This document shows positions 19,742 to 28,314 of a stretch of DNA of 38,312 nt, in pieces. The first letter of the stretch is position 1, and each line of letters starts with the position of its first letter. Origin of the DNA: Spirochaetaceae bacterium (GTDB lineage: Bacteria > Spirochaetota > Spirochaetia > DSM-2461); NCBI GenBank assembly GCA_016744925.1, contig JADGDJ010000015.1:1-38312 (forward strand), written 5' to 3'. Under the pieces are notes generated by a model. That model did not search any database and was not told where the DNA came from. It was given only the letters and a program-made list of their open reading frames with translations. The position numbers and the translations under genes are program-made.

Positions 19742-19903
19742 AACGATTCCCCTCTTACTTCTTTATTTTATTATACAATCTAACTTCAGTTTTATATAAA
19801 TAATTAGGTGCCATTATTTTATAAATACATTTATTTTATATCTGTCATTATAAAAATCGTGTTTTTGGGTTAAACTGGTTATAGCTTAAAAGCGGAGGTA
19901 CTC

Positions 19904-22900
19904 ATGTCTTTAAAACCCAACACTCGACTACTTCAGAAAAATGACCGCATAGGAATCCTGAACAGAGGAGAAGCGGCATTGCGTTTCATCCGTGCCGTTA
20001 AAGAATACAACGACATACACAATACTACCCTTACGACGGTAGCGCTATATATAGATAAGGAGGAGAATGCTCCTTTTGTCAAACAGGCGGATTTTTGTCT
20101 GGCACTCTCATCACTACCTTTATTTCCTGGAAAACAGCAAAGTCCCTACCTGGACCACCAACTCATGCTACAAGCCCTGAAAATAGCAGATTGCCAGTCC
20201 GTTTGGGTCGGATGGGGATTTGTGTCGGAAGATGCGGACTTTGTAAAATTGATGGAAGATTCTTATATCAACTTCATGGGTCCGTCCAGTGAGTCAATGG
20301 CTCTTCTCGGTGATAAGATAGCAGCCAAAGAGTTGGCCGACCAGGCGGAAGTCCCCATACTTCCCTGGAGCAGGGGTTCTGTAAAAACTCTCAACGACGC
20401 TGAGGAAATCTCTGAGAAATTAGGATATCCAGTCATCGTTAAAGCATCCAATGCGGGAGGAGGACGGGGGATCCGTTTTGTCCGGACACCGGAAGAGCTG
20501 GAAACTCAATACAATTCAGCAAAAGAAGAGACCATCCGGATTACAGGAAATGATGTCGTATTTATAGAGCTTCTCGTGGAAAGAGGCCGTCACCTGGAAG
20601 TGCAGGTTCTGTCCGACTCCCATGGCCACATAAATACATTCGGAGCGAGAGACTGTTCCGCACAGAGAAAGAATCAAAAGATTATTGAAGAGACTCCCCC
20701 TCCGGGACTTTCTGATAAAATAATAAAAGCAATGGAATCCGCAGCTTCCCGACTGATCAAAGCAGCGGGCTATGTAGGCGCCGGAACTGTGGAATACCTC
20801 TATGATTTGAACAGAAAAGAGTTTTATTTTATGGAAGTCAATACGAGACTTCAGGTGGAACATCCCATTACGGAAACTCTTTATCAGATGGATCTTGTAA
20901 AAGGTCAGATAGATGTGGCCATGGGAAAAGAGTGCGATTTGAGCGCATGTCTCCCCTCGGGAGCGGTTATGGAAGTCCGGCTCAATGCGGAAGATCCCGC
21001 CAAGAATTTCAGCCCGTCTCCCGGTTTGGTAACACTTTTGACTCAGCCTTCGGGAGCGGGAATCAGAGTGGACTTCGGAATTGAACAGGGATCTATCATT
21101 CCGTCGGATTTCGACTCCATGGTGGGGAAAATTATTGCTTTCGCTCCAACCCGAAGAGAAGCTATTTCCCGTTTGAAAAGAGCTCTCCACGAGCTGACCA
21201 TTGCCATAGAAAACGGGACGACTAATAAAGCCTTCCTTCTGGAGCTGTTAAACAGGAAAGAGATTGTCAAAGGAGGAATCCATACAGGCTTTGTCGAAGA
21301 GCTCATCGAAAAGAAAGTGAACAAAACCGACAGAGAAAAATTGGAAGTCGCTCTTATCGCAGGGGCACTCAATCAGCACTATCTCCACTACAAAAAAGAT
21401 TTCATCAATTTCAAACAGCAGCTAATACGAATCGGAAGCCCCAGGAATTTACCGGATAACTTAGGCTATGAGGTAACTCTGGCAGCTGAGGGCAATAGTT
21501 ATACGTTTAAAGTGAAACAGCATGGGGACAATTACTACGAACTGGAATGGGAAAATAAAAAAATCAGCTGCCGCAGCATGATCAATGATAATAGAGGAGT
21601 ACTGCTCTACAAAGAGAAGAGATACAATATCCTTTTAATCCCCCGGGGAGATCAGCTCCAGTGTGAAATCGACGGTTACCCTGTTTTACTTGAAAGCGAT
21701 TCGGGAGGTTGGGTACGCTCGCCTTCACCGGCTATCATTCTCTCCATGAACTGCACAGTAGGTCAGGAAATTAAAAAAGGCGATGTTTTGGGCATTCTCG
21801 AAGCTATGAAAATGGAGATGCTGCTCGAAGCCCCTGCTGATGGCCTGGTCAGGGAGATCAAGATCTCCTCGGGGGAACAAGTCTCTGCAGGTCAGCCGTT
21901 GATCCTGATGGAGAGCGGTGAGCAAGCAGAAGAAAGTGATGATCCATCGGTTCCTCCTATAAAATGGAAAAAGACTCTCCTAGAAGATGAACAGAAATTC
22001 AAAAGCCTCAAAAGGGAACTGCTCGGGACCTTTCTCGGTTATGATCACAGGGAAAACCTCGTGGATCTGCTCGATGAAATATGTATCCATGAAGATCTTT
22101 ATGAACTGTTTATAACCGCTCTAGAGTACAACAACAATATTGAACGTTTATTTCAATCCGTTGAAGTGGATACAACCGGATTCACCCGCCCCCTCACCTA
22201 TCAGGAAATGTTAAGTCATTATTTCAGAAGTGATGGTGATCGTGTAAAAGGCTTGCCCGAAGAGTTTATCAATCACCTGATGATTGCTATTGATTGTTAT
22301 TACGTACCGGAATTATCTGAAGATGAGCGTCAAAACCACGCACTTTTTCATATTTTCAAATCTCATGCAGCTATGCCTTCAAAAGAGATTTTGCTCAAAG
22401 AGATTCTCTACCGCATGCAGAATTATCCGCTGCCCGATGATCAGCAGAAACGATTCACAGATGCAGTGAATGAAACTATTTCACTCACCATGGTGCATTC
22501 CAATTCCATAGTGGATATGGCTCTTCATCTTCTCTATGTTAAAATCAACAGGATTAAGAGCAGAATGAGAGATGAAAATTACGCTGACGAAATCTGTTCT
22601 CTCGTGGAAAAAATCCACATAACCAAAGAGGATCGCATTGAGAGAAAGATCAGCGAACTTGCTGATTCTCCCGCATCTATAATAAGAGATCTCATAAATC
22701 TTATTATGGAAGATGATGCCCAGAAGCTGAATATTTCGTTGAAAATACTGGGTGCACATTTTAACAGGGACAGAAAGATTAAAGAGTCCCGTATTCTTGA
22801 AGAAAAGGGATATTCAGTTTCCCATGTTGTAACAGAAAAGAATGGGTCTGAGCGACATAGTCTGACAGCAGTCGTCAGCGGTTTCGATAAACTGAAATCA

Positions 22901-25384
22901 CTCCCCATCGGCAAATGGATCAAAGCAACGGGCAGTGATCATGTGGAACTGACAATTGTAATAAAAACCTATGGCAGTGAAGTAGAAAAAGACAAGTTGA
23001 TCAATCTTATTGATAAAAAGGCAGGTCCCTATCTAAAATTTGTTTCAATCGGAATATATCCAGAAAATGCCGTTTATGATTTCAGAACCTATCAATGGGG
23101 AGAAACATGGGATGAAATAAACCTTAGACGAGGCTTTTCTCCTCTACAATTCAGAGAGCTGCGCGTTTTCCGATTAAAAGATTTTGATACATCCATCCTC
23201 TATAAAAGTGAATATGTAACATTGTTAGAGGTAAAATCACGTGCTAATGAGAGAGATATAAGGCTCTTTGCCTACTCATCCATATCAGTCTCGGAAATTG
23301 TCCTCTCAACAAGCGGTCGTATAAAACAACTGATAGAATTTGAATCAGCTCTGACTGAAGCCGCTTATGCCATGAGAGCGGTTCAGGCCAAACACAAATA
23401 CAGGCTCCAGTGGAACAGAGTCATTATCCACAATCGCAGCCTGCTCAATCTCCGCTTACCCCAAATGAAACACCTGGAGAAGAAGTTCGTGAAAATGGCT
23501 TCCGGTCTGGGCATGCAGAGACTAGTTTTTTATACGAGACGAATCAAGCGGAACGAGAGAGAAGTGCGTGATCTGGAGCTTATTTTCAGTCACGTATCAC
23601 AGGAGCAATACTCAGTAAGTGGACGTAAACCCTCAGAAGAACCGCTGAAAGCTCTCGACAAATACACATCAAGTGTTATCCGGGCTCGACGGCGCAATGT
23701 CATATACCCCTATGAGTTTATCAAAATGATCACTTTTGCGGGATATCATATCCTCAGCCATATGCCAAAAGGAGAATTTGAAGAATTCATTTACAAAGAT
23801 GACAAGATTCTTTCGGTAAAAGGGAGAGATCCCGGACAAAATGATTCCAATATTGTTTTCGGAATTATTTCCAATCATTCTGAGGAACTGGGTTTACACT
23901 TTAGAAGAGTCATCATACTGGCCGACCCGACAAAAGATCTGGGAAGTCTGGCGGAAAAAGAGAGCCGGAATGTCATAGCGGCTCTGGATCTCGCCGACGC
24001 ACAGGATATCCCCGTCGAATGGATTCCCATCTCTTCGGGAGCAAAAATCAATATGGAGAGCGGTACTGAAAATCTAGACTGGACGGCTAAGGCTCTCAAG
24101 AGAATCATAGAGTTCACCCAGGAAGGCGGAGAGATCAATATCATAGTTCCCGGAATTAATGTGGGTGCTCAATCCTATTGGAATGCCGAAGCGACCATGC
24201 TCATGCACACAAGAGGAATGCTCATTATGACTGATGATGCGTCCATGCTCCTGACTGGTAAAAAAGCACTCGACTTTTCAGGAAGTGTTTCTGGAACCAA
24301 CAACCTGGATATCGGTGGTGCTGAGAAGATCATGGGACCAAACGGACAGGCTCAGATTAGAGTAGCCAATATTTCCGAAGCCTATAAAGTCCTCTTCAAT
24401 CATTACAGCCTGACTTATGTGGCTGCCGGCTCCAACTTTCCCGAAAAGAAAGAATCGACAGACCCTGCAGACAGAGACATTACGAACTATCCCTATAAGG
24501 ATTTTCTCGGACAGGGATTCTCCTGTGTCGGAGATATCTTCAGCCTTGAAAAAAATCCCGATAGAAAGAAACCTTTCGATATCCGGCAGGTTATGCTCTC
24601 TTTAATTGATAGGGATTCGGATCATCTCGAGCGATGGCGCTCTATGGAAAAAGCCGACACGGCAGTTGTATGGGAAACGAGGATCGGTGGATACGCGGCG
24701 GGACTTGTGAGCATTGAAAGCAGAAACATCCCCAGAATCGGTTCAATACCTTTTAACGGTCCTGAATTGTGGTCCGGTGGAACTCTATTTCCCAAATCAT
24801 CTAAAAAGATAGCCCGTGCGGTCAATGCGTTCTCAGGACATCTGCCTCTGGTGGTTATGGCCAATCTTTCGGGCTTTGACGGATCTCCCGAATCTCTTAA
24901 AAACCTTCAGCTTGAATACGGAGCAGAAATAGGGAGAGCCATTGTTAATTTCAAAGGACCGATTATTTTTGTGGTCATTGCGAGATATCATGGGGGAGCG
25001 TATGTTGTATTCTCAAAATCCTTAAACCCCAACATCCGATCGGCCGCTCTTGAAGGGTCATATGCCTCCGTTATCGGAGGAGCTCCCGCGGCGGCTGTAG
25101 TTTTCCCTAAAACCGTTTCAAAAGAGGTCTATAGAGACGAAAGAGTTATTGAAAAACAAAAGGCTCTCAACAAAGGCAAATGTACTCCGCGAGAATATCA
25201 GGAACTATTCAATAACGTTTATAATGAAAAGCAAAGGGAGCTGGCAGAAAAATTTGATAAAATACACTCCGTGGAGAGAGCGACAAAAGTCGGTTCTATC
25301 GATGTGATAATAAGTGCGGCCCAGCTGAGACCATATATAGTGAAAGAAATTCATGAGGGGATGGAAAGATATCTTTCTAACTAA
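19904..25384 (+). CDS. single-chain acyl-CoA (acetyl-CoA) carboxylase, BC-BCCP-central-CT fusion
   Basis: 1826 residues. Biotin carboxylase covers about 10-455: glycine-rich ATP loop VIVKASNAGGGRGIRFV (177-193), H230-LEVQV, and the metal/bicarbonate segment MEVNTRLQVEHPITE (from 310; Glu311, Asn313, Arg315, Glu319). The ERDCS motif reads ARDCS (Ala248). The biotin carrier domain is about 608-674, with biotinyl Lys636 in EAMKMEM. A central region of about 580 residues resembles the eukaryotic ACC central domain (WNRVIIHNRS, YPYEFIKMI). The carboxyltransferase N-half is about 1270-1530 (LHFRRVIILAD; SSGAKI from 1377) and the C-half about 1560-1800 (GFDGSPESL; GGAYVVF). The domain order is that of eukaryotic ACC, not the split AccABCD. 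It would make malonyl-CoA (or a longer homologue) from acyl-CoA, ATP and bicarbonate. GGAGG lies 5 bases before the ATG. It is monocistronic and overlaps the convergent mocR-type gene by 8 bp. Confidence 0.9.
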   Translation: MSLKPNTRLLQKNDRIGILNRGEAALRFIRAVKEYNDIHNTTLTTVALYIDKEENAPFVKQADFCLALSSLPLFPGKQQSPYLDHQLMLQALKIADCQSVWVGWGFVSEDADFVKLMEDSYINFMGPSSESMALLGDKIAAKELADQAEVPILPWSRGSVKTLNDAEEISEKLGYPVIVKASNAGGGRGIRFVRTPEELETQYNSAKEETIRITGNDVVFIELLVERGRHLEVQVLSDSHGHINTFGARDCSAQRKNQKIIEETPPPGLSDKIIKAMESAASRLIKAAGYVGAGTVEYLYDLNRKEFYFMEVNTRLQVEHPITETLYQMDLVKGQIDVAMGKECDLSACLPSGAVMEVRLNAEDPAKNFSPSPGLVTLLTQPSGAGIRVDFGIEQGSIIPSDFDSMVGKIIAFAPTRREAISRLKRALHELTIAIENGTTNKAFLLELLNRKEIVKGGIHTGFVEELIEKKVNKTDREKLEVALIAGALNQHYLHYKKDFINFKQQLIRIGSPRNLPDNLGYEVTLAAEGNSYTFKVKQHGDNYYELEWENKKISCRSMINDNRGVLLYKEKRYNILLIPRGDQLQCEIDGYPVLLESDSGGWVRSPSPAIILSMNCTVGQEIKKGDVLGILEAMKMEMLLEAPADGLVREIKISSGEQVSAGQPLILMESGEQAEESDDPSVPPIKWKKTLLEDEQKFKSLKRELLGTFLGYDHRENLVDLLDEICIHEDLYELFITALEYNNNIERLFQSVEVDTTGFTRPLTYQEMLSHYFRSDGDRVKGLPEEFINHLMIAIDCYYVPELSEDERQNHALFHIFKSHAAMPSKEILLKEILYRMQNYPLPDDQQKRFTDAVNETISLTMVHSNSIVDMALHLLYVKINRIKSRMRDENYADEICSLVEKIHITKEDRIERKISELADSPASIIRDLINLIMEDDAQKLNISLKILGAHFNRDRKIKESRILEEKGYSVSHVVTEKNGSERHSLTAVVSGFDKLKSLPIGKWIKATGSDHVELTIVIKTYGSEVEKDKLINLIDKKAGPYLKFVSIGIYPENAVYDFRTYQWGETWDEINLRRGFSPLQFRELRVFRLKDFDTSILYKSEYVTLLEVKSRANERDIRLFAYSSISVSEIVLSTSGRIKQLIEFESALTEAAYAMRAVQAKHKYRLQWNRVIIHNRSLLNLRLPQMKHLEKKFVKMASGLGMQRLVFYTRRIKRNEREVRDLELIFSHVSQEQYSVSGRKPSEEPLKALDKYTSSVIRARRRNVIYPYEFIKMITFAGYHILSHMPKGEFEEFIYKDDKILSVKGRDPGQNDSNIVFGIISNHSEELGLHFRRVIILADPTKDLGSLAEKESRNVIAALDLADAQDIPVEWIPISSGAKINMESGTENLDWTAKALKRIIEFTQEGGEINIIVPGINVGAQSYWNAEATMLMHTRGMLIMTDDASMLLTGKKALDFSGSVSGTNNLDIGGAEKIMGPNGQAQIRVANISEAYKVLFNHYSLTYVAAGSNFPEKKESTDPADRDITNYPYKDFLGQGFSCVGDIFSLEKNPDRKKPFDIRQVMLSLIDRDSDHLERWRSMEKADTAVVWETRIGGYAAGLVSIESRNIPRIGSIPFNGPELWSGGTLFPKSSKKIARAVNAFSGHLPLVVMANLSGFDGSPESLKNLQLEYGAEIGRAIVNFKGPIIFVVIARYHGGAYVVFSKSLNPNIRSAALEGSYASVIGGAPAAAVVFPKTVSKEVYRDERVIEKQKALNKGKCTPREYQELFNNVYNEKQRELAEKFDKIHSVERATKVGSIDVIISAAQLRPYIVKEIHEGMERYLSN

Positions 25385-26795
25385 GCTCCTTAATGCGGTC
25401 TCCCAGTTTCTTTATCCCATCTCCCGTTGCATCAGTGACGGGAGAGCCGCAGCTGAGCCGTATGCAGTTAGAGAATTTCCCCGAGGCGCTGTATACGGGA
25501 CCCGGTACGATACCGATTTTCTGAGCGTATGCCCAGGAGAAAAGTTCCTGGGAATCGATATTCCCGGGCATTTCTATCCATAAATAAAATCCCCCTTCGG
25601 GAGTGGATATTTTTGTCTCTGCGGGAAAATATTCCTCTACGAGATTTCGAATACCGTATGTCTGGGAGGCAATTTTTTTTCTGAAAAATTTCAGATGATA
25701 TTCATAGGAACCGGACCTGAGATACTCGGCAACGGATTTTTCAATAAGAATAGTGCCGCCCAATCCCGAAAGCTGTCTTGCTCTGGAAATATTTTCAAAA
25801 AAAAGTCCCGGAATTATCCATCCTATCCTCAGCCCCGGTGCCAGTGTTTTTGAGAAAGAGGAACAATATAGAACTCTGCCTCTCTGATCGAGAGATTTCA
25901 GGGAATGAAAAGATTTTCCCGTAAAGGAGCAGTCCCCGTAAATATCATCTTCAATTATATACATGTCATACTTTTCAGAAAGATTATACAAAGCGGTCTT
26001 ATCGCTGTCAGACATAGTGAACCCCAGAGGATTCTGAAAAACAGGAGAGACAATGACCGCTCTAACAGTATTCTCTTTCAGCACAGTTTCAAGAATTTGC
26101 AGATCCATCCCGCTGTCAGCTCTTGTGGGAATTTCTATGACATTTCTGTTCAGATGCTCAAGAATTGTGACAACTCCCAGATAGGCAGGTGATTCAATAG
26201 CTATCGTATCCCCTTCCGCAGAAAGAGAGTTAATGGCGAGATAAAGAGCTTCAGTACAGCCATTTGTAATGATAATCTCTTCATTTGTGGCATAAACCCC
26301 TTTTTTCAGCATATACCGGGAGATCTCTTCGCGCAAACAGAGTTCACCGTTAGTCTCGGTATAGTGATTGAGATAACTGTAATCGTTTTTTGCATTTCTG
26401 GATATCAGAACGGATATTTTATGCACTTCGAGAATAGACAGATCGGGAATAGTGGCTCCGAAGGGGAGAAAATCCTCATTCTGAGACATGTCCATAATTG
26501 TGCTGATCATTGTGCTCGGCCGGCTCTCCAGAGGAAGCAGACTATGCTCATAATTATAGGGTTCGGGAAGATTACTCTTTTTCCTCGGCAACACAAAAAA
26601 ACCGGACTTTTCGACTGATTGAATATACCCCTGACATTCCAGCTCTTCATAGGCCTGCATAATTACAGACAACGAGCAGTCGAACTGCTGTGCCGTCTTT
26701 CTGAGAGAGCTGAGCTTCTGACCACTGTTCAGAATCCCCTTTTCAATAGCTTCGACAAAATGCTGAAAAATCTCTTCATATTTAAAAACTGTCAT
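25377..26795 (-). CDS. MocR/PdxR-family regulator (GntR HTH fused to an aminotransferase-like domain)
   Basis: 472 residues: wHTH about 1-70 (KLSSLRKTAQQFDCSLSVIMQAYEELECQGYIQSV), linker, then a fold-type I PLP domain about 100-470. PLP contacts are present: Asn255 in FQNPLG, Asp283 in IIEDDIYG, and Schiff-base Lys316 in SSFSKTLAPGLRIGW. MocR proteins use PLP or an amino-acid/PLP adduct as the signal. The protein is divergent from a PLP decarboxylase gene that it probably controls; two 13-bp direct repeats lie between them, one inside its own promoter. No ribosome-binding site precedes the ATG, and the best -10 box ends 6 bases before it, so the mRNA may be leaderless. Confidence 0.92.
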   Translation of the reverse strand: MTVFKYEEIFQHFVEAIEKGILNSGQKLSSLRKTAQQFDCSLSVIMQAYEELECQGYIQSVEKSGFFVLPRKKSNLPEPYNYEHSLLPLESRPSTMISTIMDMSQNEDFLPFGATIPDLSILEVHKISVLISRNAKNDYSYLNHYTETNGELCLREEISRYMLKKGVYATNEEIIITNGCTEALYLAINSLSAEGDTIAIESPAYLGVVTILEHLNRNVIEIPTRADSGMDLQILETVLKENTVRAVIVSPVFQNPLGFTMSDSDKTALYNLSEKYDMYIIEDDIYGDCSFTGKSFHSLKSLDQRGRVLYCSSFSKTLAPGLRIGWIIPGLFFENISRARQLSGLGGTILIEKSVAEYLRSGSYEYHLKFFRKKIASQTYGIRNLVEEYFPAETKISTPEGGFYLWIEMPGNIDSQELFSWAYAQKIGIVPGPVYSASGKFSNCIRLSCGSPVTDATGDGIKKLGDRIKELS

Positions 26796-26901: not shown

Positions 26902-28314
26902 ATGAAAAAAGGACAATCATTACAGGATTTTTTATTCGAAGAAATTTCCGATAACAAAATTTTCAGCAAAGCCACTGACCATGGAATGAATTACCTTCGC
27001 GACGTTTTTGACAGAAATGTTTTTCCCGGGGAAGAAGCTTTAGCCCGATTAGCAACATTTGACGAAAAACTGAATGATCAACCTGTGAATGCAGTAGAGA
27101 TCCTGGATAAGCTTCATCAATATGGTTCGCCGGCGACTGTTGCACAAATGGGAGGGCGGTATTTTGGATTTGTCTGCGGAAGTTCGATTCCCGCCGGGCT
27201 TGCGGCAAAAAACCTGGCTTCATTCTGGGATCAGAACTCGGCAATGTATGTTCTCTCCCCTCTTGCATCAAAGCTGGAAACTGTTGTCGAGTCATGGATA
27301 AAAGATATTTTTAACCTTAGAGGTGATTATGCATTCGGTTTTGTCAGCGGAAGTTCACTGGCCACGTTCTGCGCACTTGCTGCGGCCAGATACAGTCTGC
27401 TGAAAAAGCAGGATTGGGATCTGAACCGGAAGGGGCTGCAGAATTCTCCGGACTTGAGAATAGTCACGGGGAAACATGCCCATTCCACAGTACTTAAAGC
27501 CGTTAGTCTGCTGGGGCTGGGCACTGATAACATTGAATGGGTCGAAGTGGATGACCAGGGGAGGATCAGGGCGGATCTTATACCCCGACTGGATGGAAAT
27601 ACTATTTTGATCCTTCAGGCGGGTAATGTAAACAGTGGTTCATTTGATGATTTTTCCTCAATATGCGGTAAAGCGAAAAAGGCTGGAGCATGGATTCATA
27701 TTGATGGAGCTTTCGGCTTATGGGCAGCAGCCTCCTCCCGTTTATCCTTTCTGACAGAGGGGATGGAAAAAGCTGATTCTTTCTCAGTAGACGGGCATAA
27801 AACACTCAATACACCTTACGATAACGGAATTCTCATATGCAGGGACAAAGCGGCTCTGCAATCGGCTCTCCATATGTCCGGAAGTTATATAATTAAAAGC
27901 GCAGACAAAGACGGAATGTTTCATACTCCGGAAATGTCACGCAGGGCTAGAATCGTAGATTTATGGGCTACTATGAAATCTCTCGGAAAATCGGGGATAG
28001 CGGAACTTGTGGAAACCATGTCTGACCGAGCCTGTCTCTTCAAAAAAGAAATTCAGAAAATCGATGGATTTTCCGTGCTGAATGAGATCTCTTTCAACCA
28101 GGTACTGGTAACTTGTAAAAATGATGAACTGACTGAAAAAACAATGAAAAAGATTCAGGATCTCCGTGTCTGCTGGGTTGGAGGTTCACAATGGTTCGGC
28201 AGGAAAGTGATCCGCGTCAGCATTTCTTCATGGGCAACGACTGAAAAAGATATTCAGATGTCTGTGAACTCTTTTAAAGAAGCGCTTGAATACATTAGGG
28301 AAGAGGAAAAATAA
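26902..28314 (+). CDS. group II PLP-dependent amino acid decarboxylase
   Basis: 470 residues, the usual size for glutamate/aromatic/2,4-diaminobutyrate decarboxylases. The substrate-side loop MGGRYFGFVCGSSIPAGLAA and the GFVSGSSLATFCAL PLP-phosphate loop come first. His194 in GKHAHSTVLKA would stack on PLP, Asp268 in WIHIDGAFG would pair with the pyridine N, and Lys300 in SVDGHKTLN forms the Schiff base. It is cytoplasmic and releases CO2 and an amine. The LysE-type exporter gene starts 1 base after its stop, and the divergent MocR regulator is PLP-binding, so the three genes look like one amine-forming and exporting module. GAGG precedes the ATG. Which amino acid is used cannot be decided from sequence. 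Confidence 0.9.
   Translation: MKKGQSLQDFLFEEISDNKIFSKATDHGMNYLRDVFDRNVFPGEEALARLATFDEKLNDQPVNAVEILDKLHQYGSPATVAQMGGRYFGFVCGSSIPAGLAAKNLASFWDQNSAMYVLSPLASKLETVVESWIKDIFNLRGDYAFGFVSGSSLATFCALAAARYSLLKKQDWDLNRKGLQNSPDLRIVTGKHAHSTVLKAVSLLGLGTDNIEWVEVDDQGRIRADLIPRLDGNTILILQAGNVNSGSFDDFSSICGKAKKAGAWIHIDGAFGLWAAASSRLSFLTEGMEKADSFSVDGHKTLNTPYDNGILICRDKAALQSALHMSGSYIIKSADKDGMFHTPEMSRRARIVDLWATMKSLGKSGIAELVETMSDRACLFKKEIQKIDGFSVLNEISFNQVLVTCKNDELTEKTMKKIQDLRVCWVGGSQWFGRKVIRVSISSWATTEKDIQMSVNSFKEALEYIREEEK

Follow-up and report, generated by a model that had tools for sequence, protein, structure and literature searches.

A probable single-chain acetyl-CoA carboxylase of eukaryotic domain order in a spirochaete, and its relatives in other bacterial phyla

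The window, the whole stretch of 38,312 nucleotides that was analysed, contains an open reading frame of 1826 residues. This frame very probably encodes a single-chain, likely homodimeric acetyl-CoA carboxylase (ACC) of the SACE_4237 type that makes malonyl-CoA and shows homology to eukaryotic ACC over its whole length. SACE_4237 from Saccharopolyspora erythraea is the first bacterial homodimeric multidomain ACC described (Livieri et al. 2019, PMC6491548). The window protein carries biotin carboxylase (BC), BT-like, biotin carboxyl carrier (BCCP), central, and carboxyltransferase (CT) domains in one chain of approximately 200 kDa, is homologous to SACE_4237, and has a central domain with homology to that of eukaryotes; in other words, it belongs to an already known type of bacterial enzyme. 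What is new is the phylogenetic breadth: the type occurs much more widely than the literature states. The orthologues named by the published survey of SACE_4237 were actinobacterial only (PMC6491548), and a literature search of the open-access subset found no report of such an ACC from Spirochaetota.

Domain organization and the central domain

Table 1. Positions of the ACC gene, its domains, and the accD-accA cassettes of the genus. Positions are those of the window unless a locus is named.
Feature	Position	Strand	Basis
Shine-Dalgarno-like GGAGG, 5 bases before the ATG start	19894..19898	+	read from sequence
Single-chain acetyl-CoA carboxylase (probable) ORF, 1826 aa	19904..25384	+	ORF call, Pfam, relatives, SACE_4237 alignment
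BC domain, residues 14-466	19943..21301	+	Pfam; motifs GDK, VKAS, RHLE, QKIIEE, GTVE, EVNTRLQVEHP, RLNAEDP intact
BT-like (BC-CT interaction) domain, ~residues 471-600, helix then beta strands	21314..21703	+	predicted structure; Foldseek match to yeast ACC BT-BCCP-AC1-AC5
BCCP domain, ~residues 601-675	21704..21928	+	PF00364; AMKM motif
Codon of putative biotinyl Lys636	21809-21811	+	AMKM motif at residue 634
ACC central domain (AC1-AC5-like), ~residues 676-1290	21929..23773	+	family profile, predicted structure, Foldseek, PF08326 in homologs
CT domain, N and C halves, ~residues 1291-1826, family motif RYHGGAYVVFS	23774..25381	+	PF01039, CT profile, CT tree, motifs
accD-accA-(PycB/OadA-type + AccB-like BCCP) cassette	G000:C42, L139 3760-7689	-	
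accD-accA-(PycB/OadA-type + AccB-like BCCP) cassette	G001, L140 4640-8404	-	

The frame is kept at full length in relatives at 49-75% identity, and therefore does not arise by chance. An earlier note on this DNA had read it as one ORF of 1826 residues with the eukaryotic domain order, and Pfam, the predicted structure, and the relatives all confirm this. Matches well over the cut-off were obtained for Biotin_carb_N, CPSase_L_D2, and Biotin_carb_C (residues 14-466), Biotin_lipoyl (609-668), and Carboxyl_trans (1336-1790). All catalytic residues of the BC domain, located by motif, are kept. The biotin acceptor had been placed at Lys636, and the AMKM motif bears this out. The same note had also pointed to a change of ERDCS to ARDCS in the BC domain. 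The reading of ARDCS at residue 248 is correct, but it is not an oddity: the residue before RDCS is Val in nearly all family members and Gly in yeast ACC. ARDCS is therefore a trait of the clade.

The CT motif RYHGGA[YF]VVFS is common to every family member examined. The equivalent motif is NYGG, SYGG, or GYGG in beta-type CT and ELRGGSWVV in eukaryotic ACC, so that a His occupies the position of the eukaryotic Arg in the window protein (RYHGGAYVV); the same His is present in SACE_4237, which is active. Apart from this motif, the window protein differs from yeast Acc1 and human ACC1 in being approximately 400 residues shorter, and the absence of the eukaryotic N-terminal extension, as had been claimed, was borne out by this comparison. 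It shares with them the BC-BT-BCCP-central-CT order, the AC1-AC5 fold, and the GWG and PWS motifs of the BC domain. It should be mentioned that the relatives at five loci from some Woeseiaceae, Xanthomonadales, and Myxococcota (L105, L106, L108, L111, and L113) are without the usual E-A/S-MKM biotinylation motif, with the length kept, and the CT motif too where it was read. They possibly have a different biotin site or none.

For comparison with SACE_4237, its gene was located via both published primers in a contig of 8,212,805 bases. Both ends of the frame, the native GTG start (GTG-FSRVAIV) and the C-terminal EKGMLPQ, agree with the two primers. The alignment of the window protein with SACE_4237 runs end to end (residues 15-1820; 37% identity; 1148 bits). 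The identity is 46% in BC, 31% in BT-BCCP, 22% in the central domain, and 56% in CT. Domain order, length (1826 versus 1827 residues), and the CT motif RYHGGA are alike, whereas the phylum is another one and the central domain has diverged far more, being fast-evolving. The earlier note had held that the substrates of such fused proteins are poorly described. This is less so than stated, because SACE_4237 has been biochemically characterised: the dimer is active on acetyl-CoA and propionyl-CoA, with a slightly higher efficiency for acetyl-CoA, and not on palmitoyl-CoA (PMC6491548). It complements E. coli accB(ts), and is essential in S. erythraea, where oleate gives rescue (PMC6491548).

By analogy with SACE_4237, the window protein would form a dimer with acetyl-CoA as substrate. 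The BC domain would use ATP and bicarbonate to carboxylate the biotin on Lys636. With the BT and central (AC1-AC5-like) domains as the scaffold that sets its position, BCCP would then swing to the CT dimer, where the carboxyl group would be transferred to acetyl-CoA, yielding malonyl-CoA, and probably to propionyl-CoA too. Malonyl-CoA would then feed type II fatty-acid synthesis. We infer the biotinylation of Lys636 and the physiological role. ACC catalyses the step at which carbon becomes committed to fatty acids.

The segment between BCCP and CT is a genuine ACC central domain and shares its ancestry with the eukaryotic domain. A match to PF08326 (ACC_central) had been set beforehand as a test, and the window protein itself gave none over the curated cut-off; the matches in whole-genome searches of relatives were also below it. 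However, the earlier claim of an ACC-type domain, not just a linker, is upheld by other evidence. PF08326 matches 8 of 14 close homologs (best E-value 1.9e-10). A family profile of residues 676-1335 finds the yeast ACC central domain at 1.5e-11, along several collinear stretches, and makes no other credible match. Furthermore, an AlphaFold model of residues 468-1335 (mean pLDDT 78; pTM 0.61) was compared with known structures by Foldseek. The best PDB matches were only eukaryotic ACCs, from yeast and human, at E-values of about 1e-35 (8.6e-36 for 5csl). The alignment with 5csa, the yeast BT-BCCP-AC1-AC5 fragment (4e-33), covers nearly the whole fragment, and AC3-AC5 alone (5cs4) gave TM values of 0.64-0.66 over the target. 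The global rmsd between the model and ACC was large, as is expected for a flexible multi-domain chain.

Distribution and accA co-occurrence

A scan of GTDB genomes found relatives of the CT domain encoded at 258 loci. The 80 that were read come from at least seven phyla and include Spirochaetota, Planctomycetota (Uabimicrobium included), Oligoflexia, Myxococcota, Woeseiaceae and other Pseudomonadota, Holophagae/Acanthopleuribacter, and Actinomycetota. Most complete relatives have 1820-2000 residues with the BCCP and RDCS motifs present, and the close kin of the window protein are from Spirochaetales bins. At two loci, L036 (G011:C82) and L049, a break within the central domain leaves the fused gene as two overlapping frames of 923 and 907 aa, through either a frameshift or a real fission.

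In the CT tree, from which SACE_4237 was left out for its motif variant, both the family and eukaryotic ACC are separate from beta-type CT. The BC and BC+CT trees include SACE_4237. In the BC+CT tree, a mixed group contains the four actinobacterial sequences as a single tip clade (support 100). A grouping of yeast with Actinobacteria was not rejected by the AU test in the BC tree (p 0.60) or in the BC+CT tree (p 0.21), where the yeast branch is very long.

Among 61 related genomes, the fused gene was found in 19, accA in 26, and both in 4, all of which are from the window's own genus. Outside this genus, accA was in none of the 15 carriers and in 22 of the 42 non-carriers (Fisher p 1.5e-4, without correction for relatedness). 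This means that the fused ACC replaces AccA in the spirochaete relatives outside the genus, a pattern that is new. A FabD-like match was present in all carriers. In the other phyla, Holophagae and one Woeseiaceae gave a full-length AccA match, and the tested genomes of Planctomycetota, Oligoflexia, and Myxococcota gave none. In three spirochaete genomes surveyed earlier, no ACC of the standard bacterial kind had been found. A FabD-like match and no Biotin_carb_C were seen in several spirochaete genomes that are largely complete (G047, G048, G059, G060, and others).

The earlier note had proposed a check for accABCD in the window's genome. Here accA and accD are present, and accC was not found. 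The one Biotin_carb_C domain of this genome is that of the ACC frame, and the same is true of the 99%-complete congener G001; as the window's genome is only 87.4% complete, the absence of accC leans on the congeners. Two BirA-type ligases were also found in it. In two congeners in which accC was not found, accD-accA adjoin a gene for a PycB/OadA-type protein of 657-661 residues with a C-terminal biotin domain. The C-terminus of the PycB-type protein in the window's genome matches the full AccB-type BCCP model TIGR00531 at 3.4e-30, just under the cut-off. Judging from its gene content, the cassette is possibly an ATP-independent oxaloacetate:acetyl-CoA transcarboxylase giving malonyl-CoA. Given accD and accA in the window's genome, the fused ACC may not be the sole source of malonyl-CoA.

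Alternative readings and significance

That subunits of the propionyl-CoA or LCC type were recently and independently fused through an unrelated linker is very unlikely. Such a fusion would agree with the lack of a PF08326 match in the window protein, and the BC tree alone is compatible with a PCC/MCC grouping (AU p 0.51). However, the central domain matches eukaryotic ACC in both profile and fold, and the same architecture occurs in at least seven phyla. The CT profile finds eukaryotic ACC best at 4e-26, and acyl/propionyl-CoA-type carboxylases at 1e-9 or worse. This difference of approximately 16 orders of magnitude in E-value places the CT domain closest to eukaryotic ACC, not to PCC beta, and so gives no support to recent fusion from PCC parts. 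LCC is a single-chain long-chain acyl-CoA carboxylase of approximately 120 kDa, a homohexamer without the central domain. The enzymes from Mycobacterium avium and Pseudomonas resemble the window protein in having BC, BCCP, and CT in a single chain, but in the opposite order, with CT at the N-terminus (PMC6491548); this layout is absent from the window protein, in which BC, BCCP, the central domain, and CT follow one another. Shewanella AccS, another bacterial ACC that has several domains in one chain and supplies fatty-acid synthesis, also differs from eukaryotic ACC in domain order (PMC11602165). AccABCD carries out the same reaction with four separate chains.

It is improbable, though less so than a recent fusion, that the window protein is an acyl-CoA carboxylase of the same fold whose main substrate is propionyl-CoA or a longer acyl-CoA, with malonyl-CoA supplied by the accD-accA-PycB/BCCP cassette. 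The coexistence of accD and accA with the fused gene in the genus, and the carboxylation of propionyl-CoA by SACE_4237 (PMC6491548), would fit this. On the other hand, 15 related genomes have the fused enzyme and a FabD-like match with no full-length accA match, and the CT active-site motif is that of SACE_4237, with its slight preference for acetyl-CoA and no use of palmitoyl-CoA. A non-functional or mis-assembled gene from a metagenome bin is hardly credible. The assembly is indeed a draft of 413 contigs with 87.4% completeness, but the catalytic residues are intact, and so is the frame in congeners and in a large number of further genomes, some of which are assembled as one contig.

A single-chain ACC making malonyl-CoA thus seems the best reading of the window protein. 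Such an enzyme would account for malonyl-CoA production in spirochaetes without AccA and a separate biotin carboxylase. In published work, the eukaryote-style ACC of bacteria is linked to Actinobacteria, and an actinobacterial source is proposed for the eukaryotic enzyme (PMC6491548). With this architecture found in Spirochaetota and no fewer than five further phyla, and with Actinobacteria as one tip clade, the set of candidate donors for eukaryotic ACC becomes wider. A broader view can be put forward only tentatively: the one-chain ACC might be old and widely shared in bacteria instead of having been invented by Actinobacteria, eukaryotic ACC might come from a non-actinobacterial donor, and the window's genus might have, in parallel, a biotin-carboxylase-free accD-accA-PycB/BCCP transcarboxylase that turns oxaloacetate into malonyl-CoA without ATP.

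Genomic neighborhood

The upstream neighbors of the ACC gene are a GNAT protein and tRNAs, and the downstream neighbor is a MocR-type regulator on the opposite strand; no operon partner is evident among these genes. A promoter scan near the ACC gene gave fewer sites than in shuffled sequences and none upstream. The MocR-type PLP regulator (25377-26795, minus strand) is divergent from a gene for a PLP-dependent decarboxylase (26902-28314, plus strand; PanP/diaminobutyrate-decarboxylase-like), which is followed by that of a LysE-type exporter.
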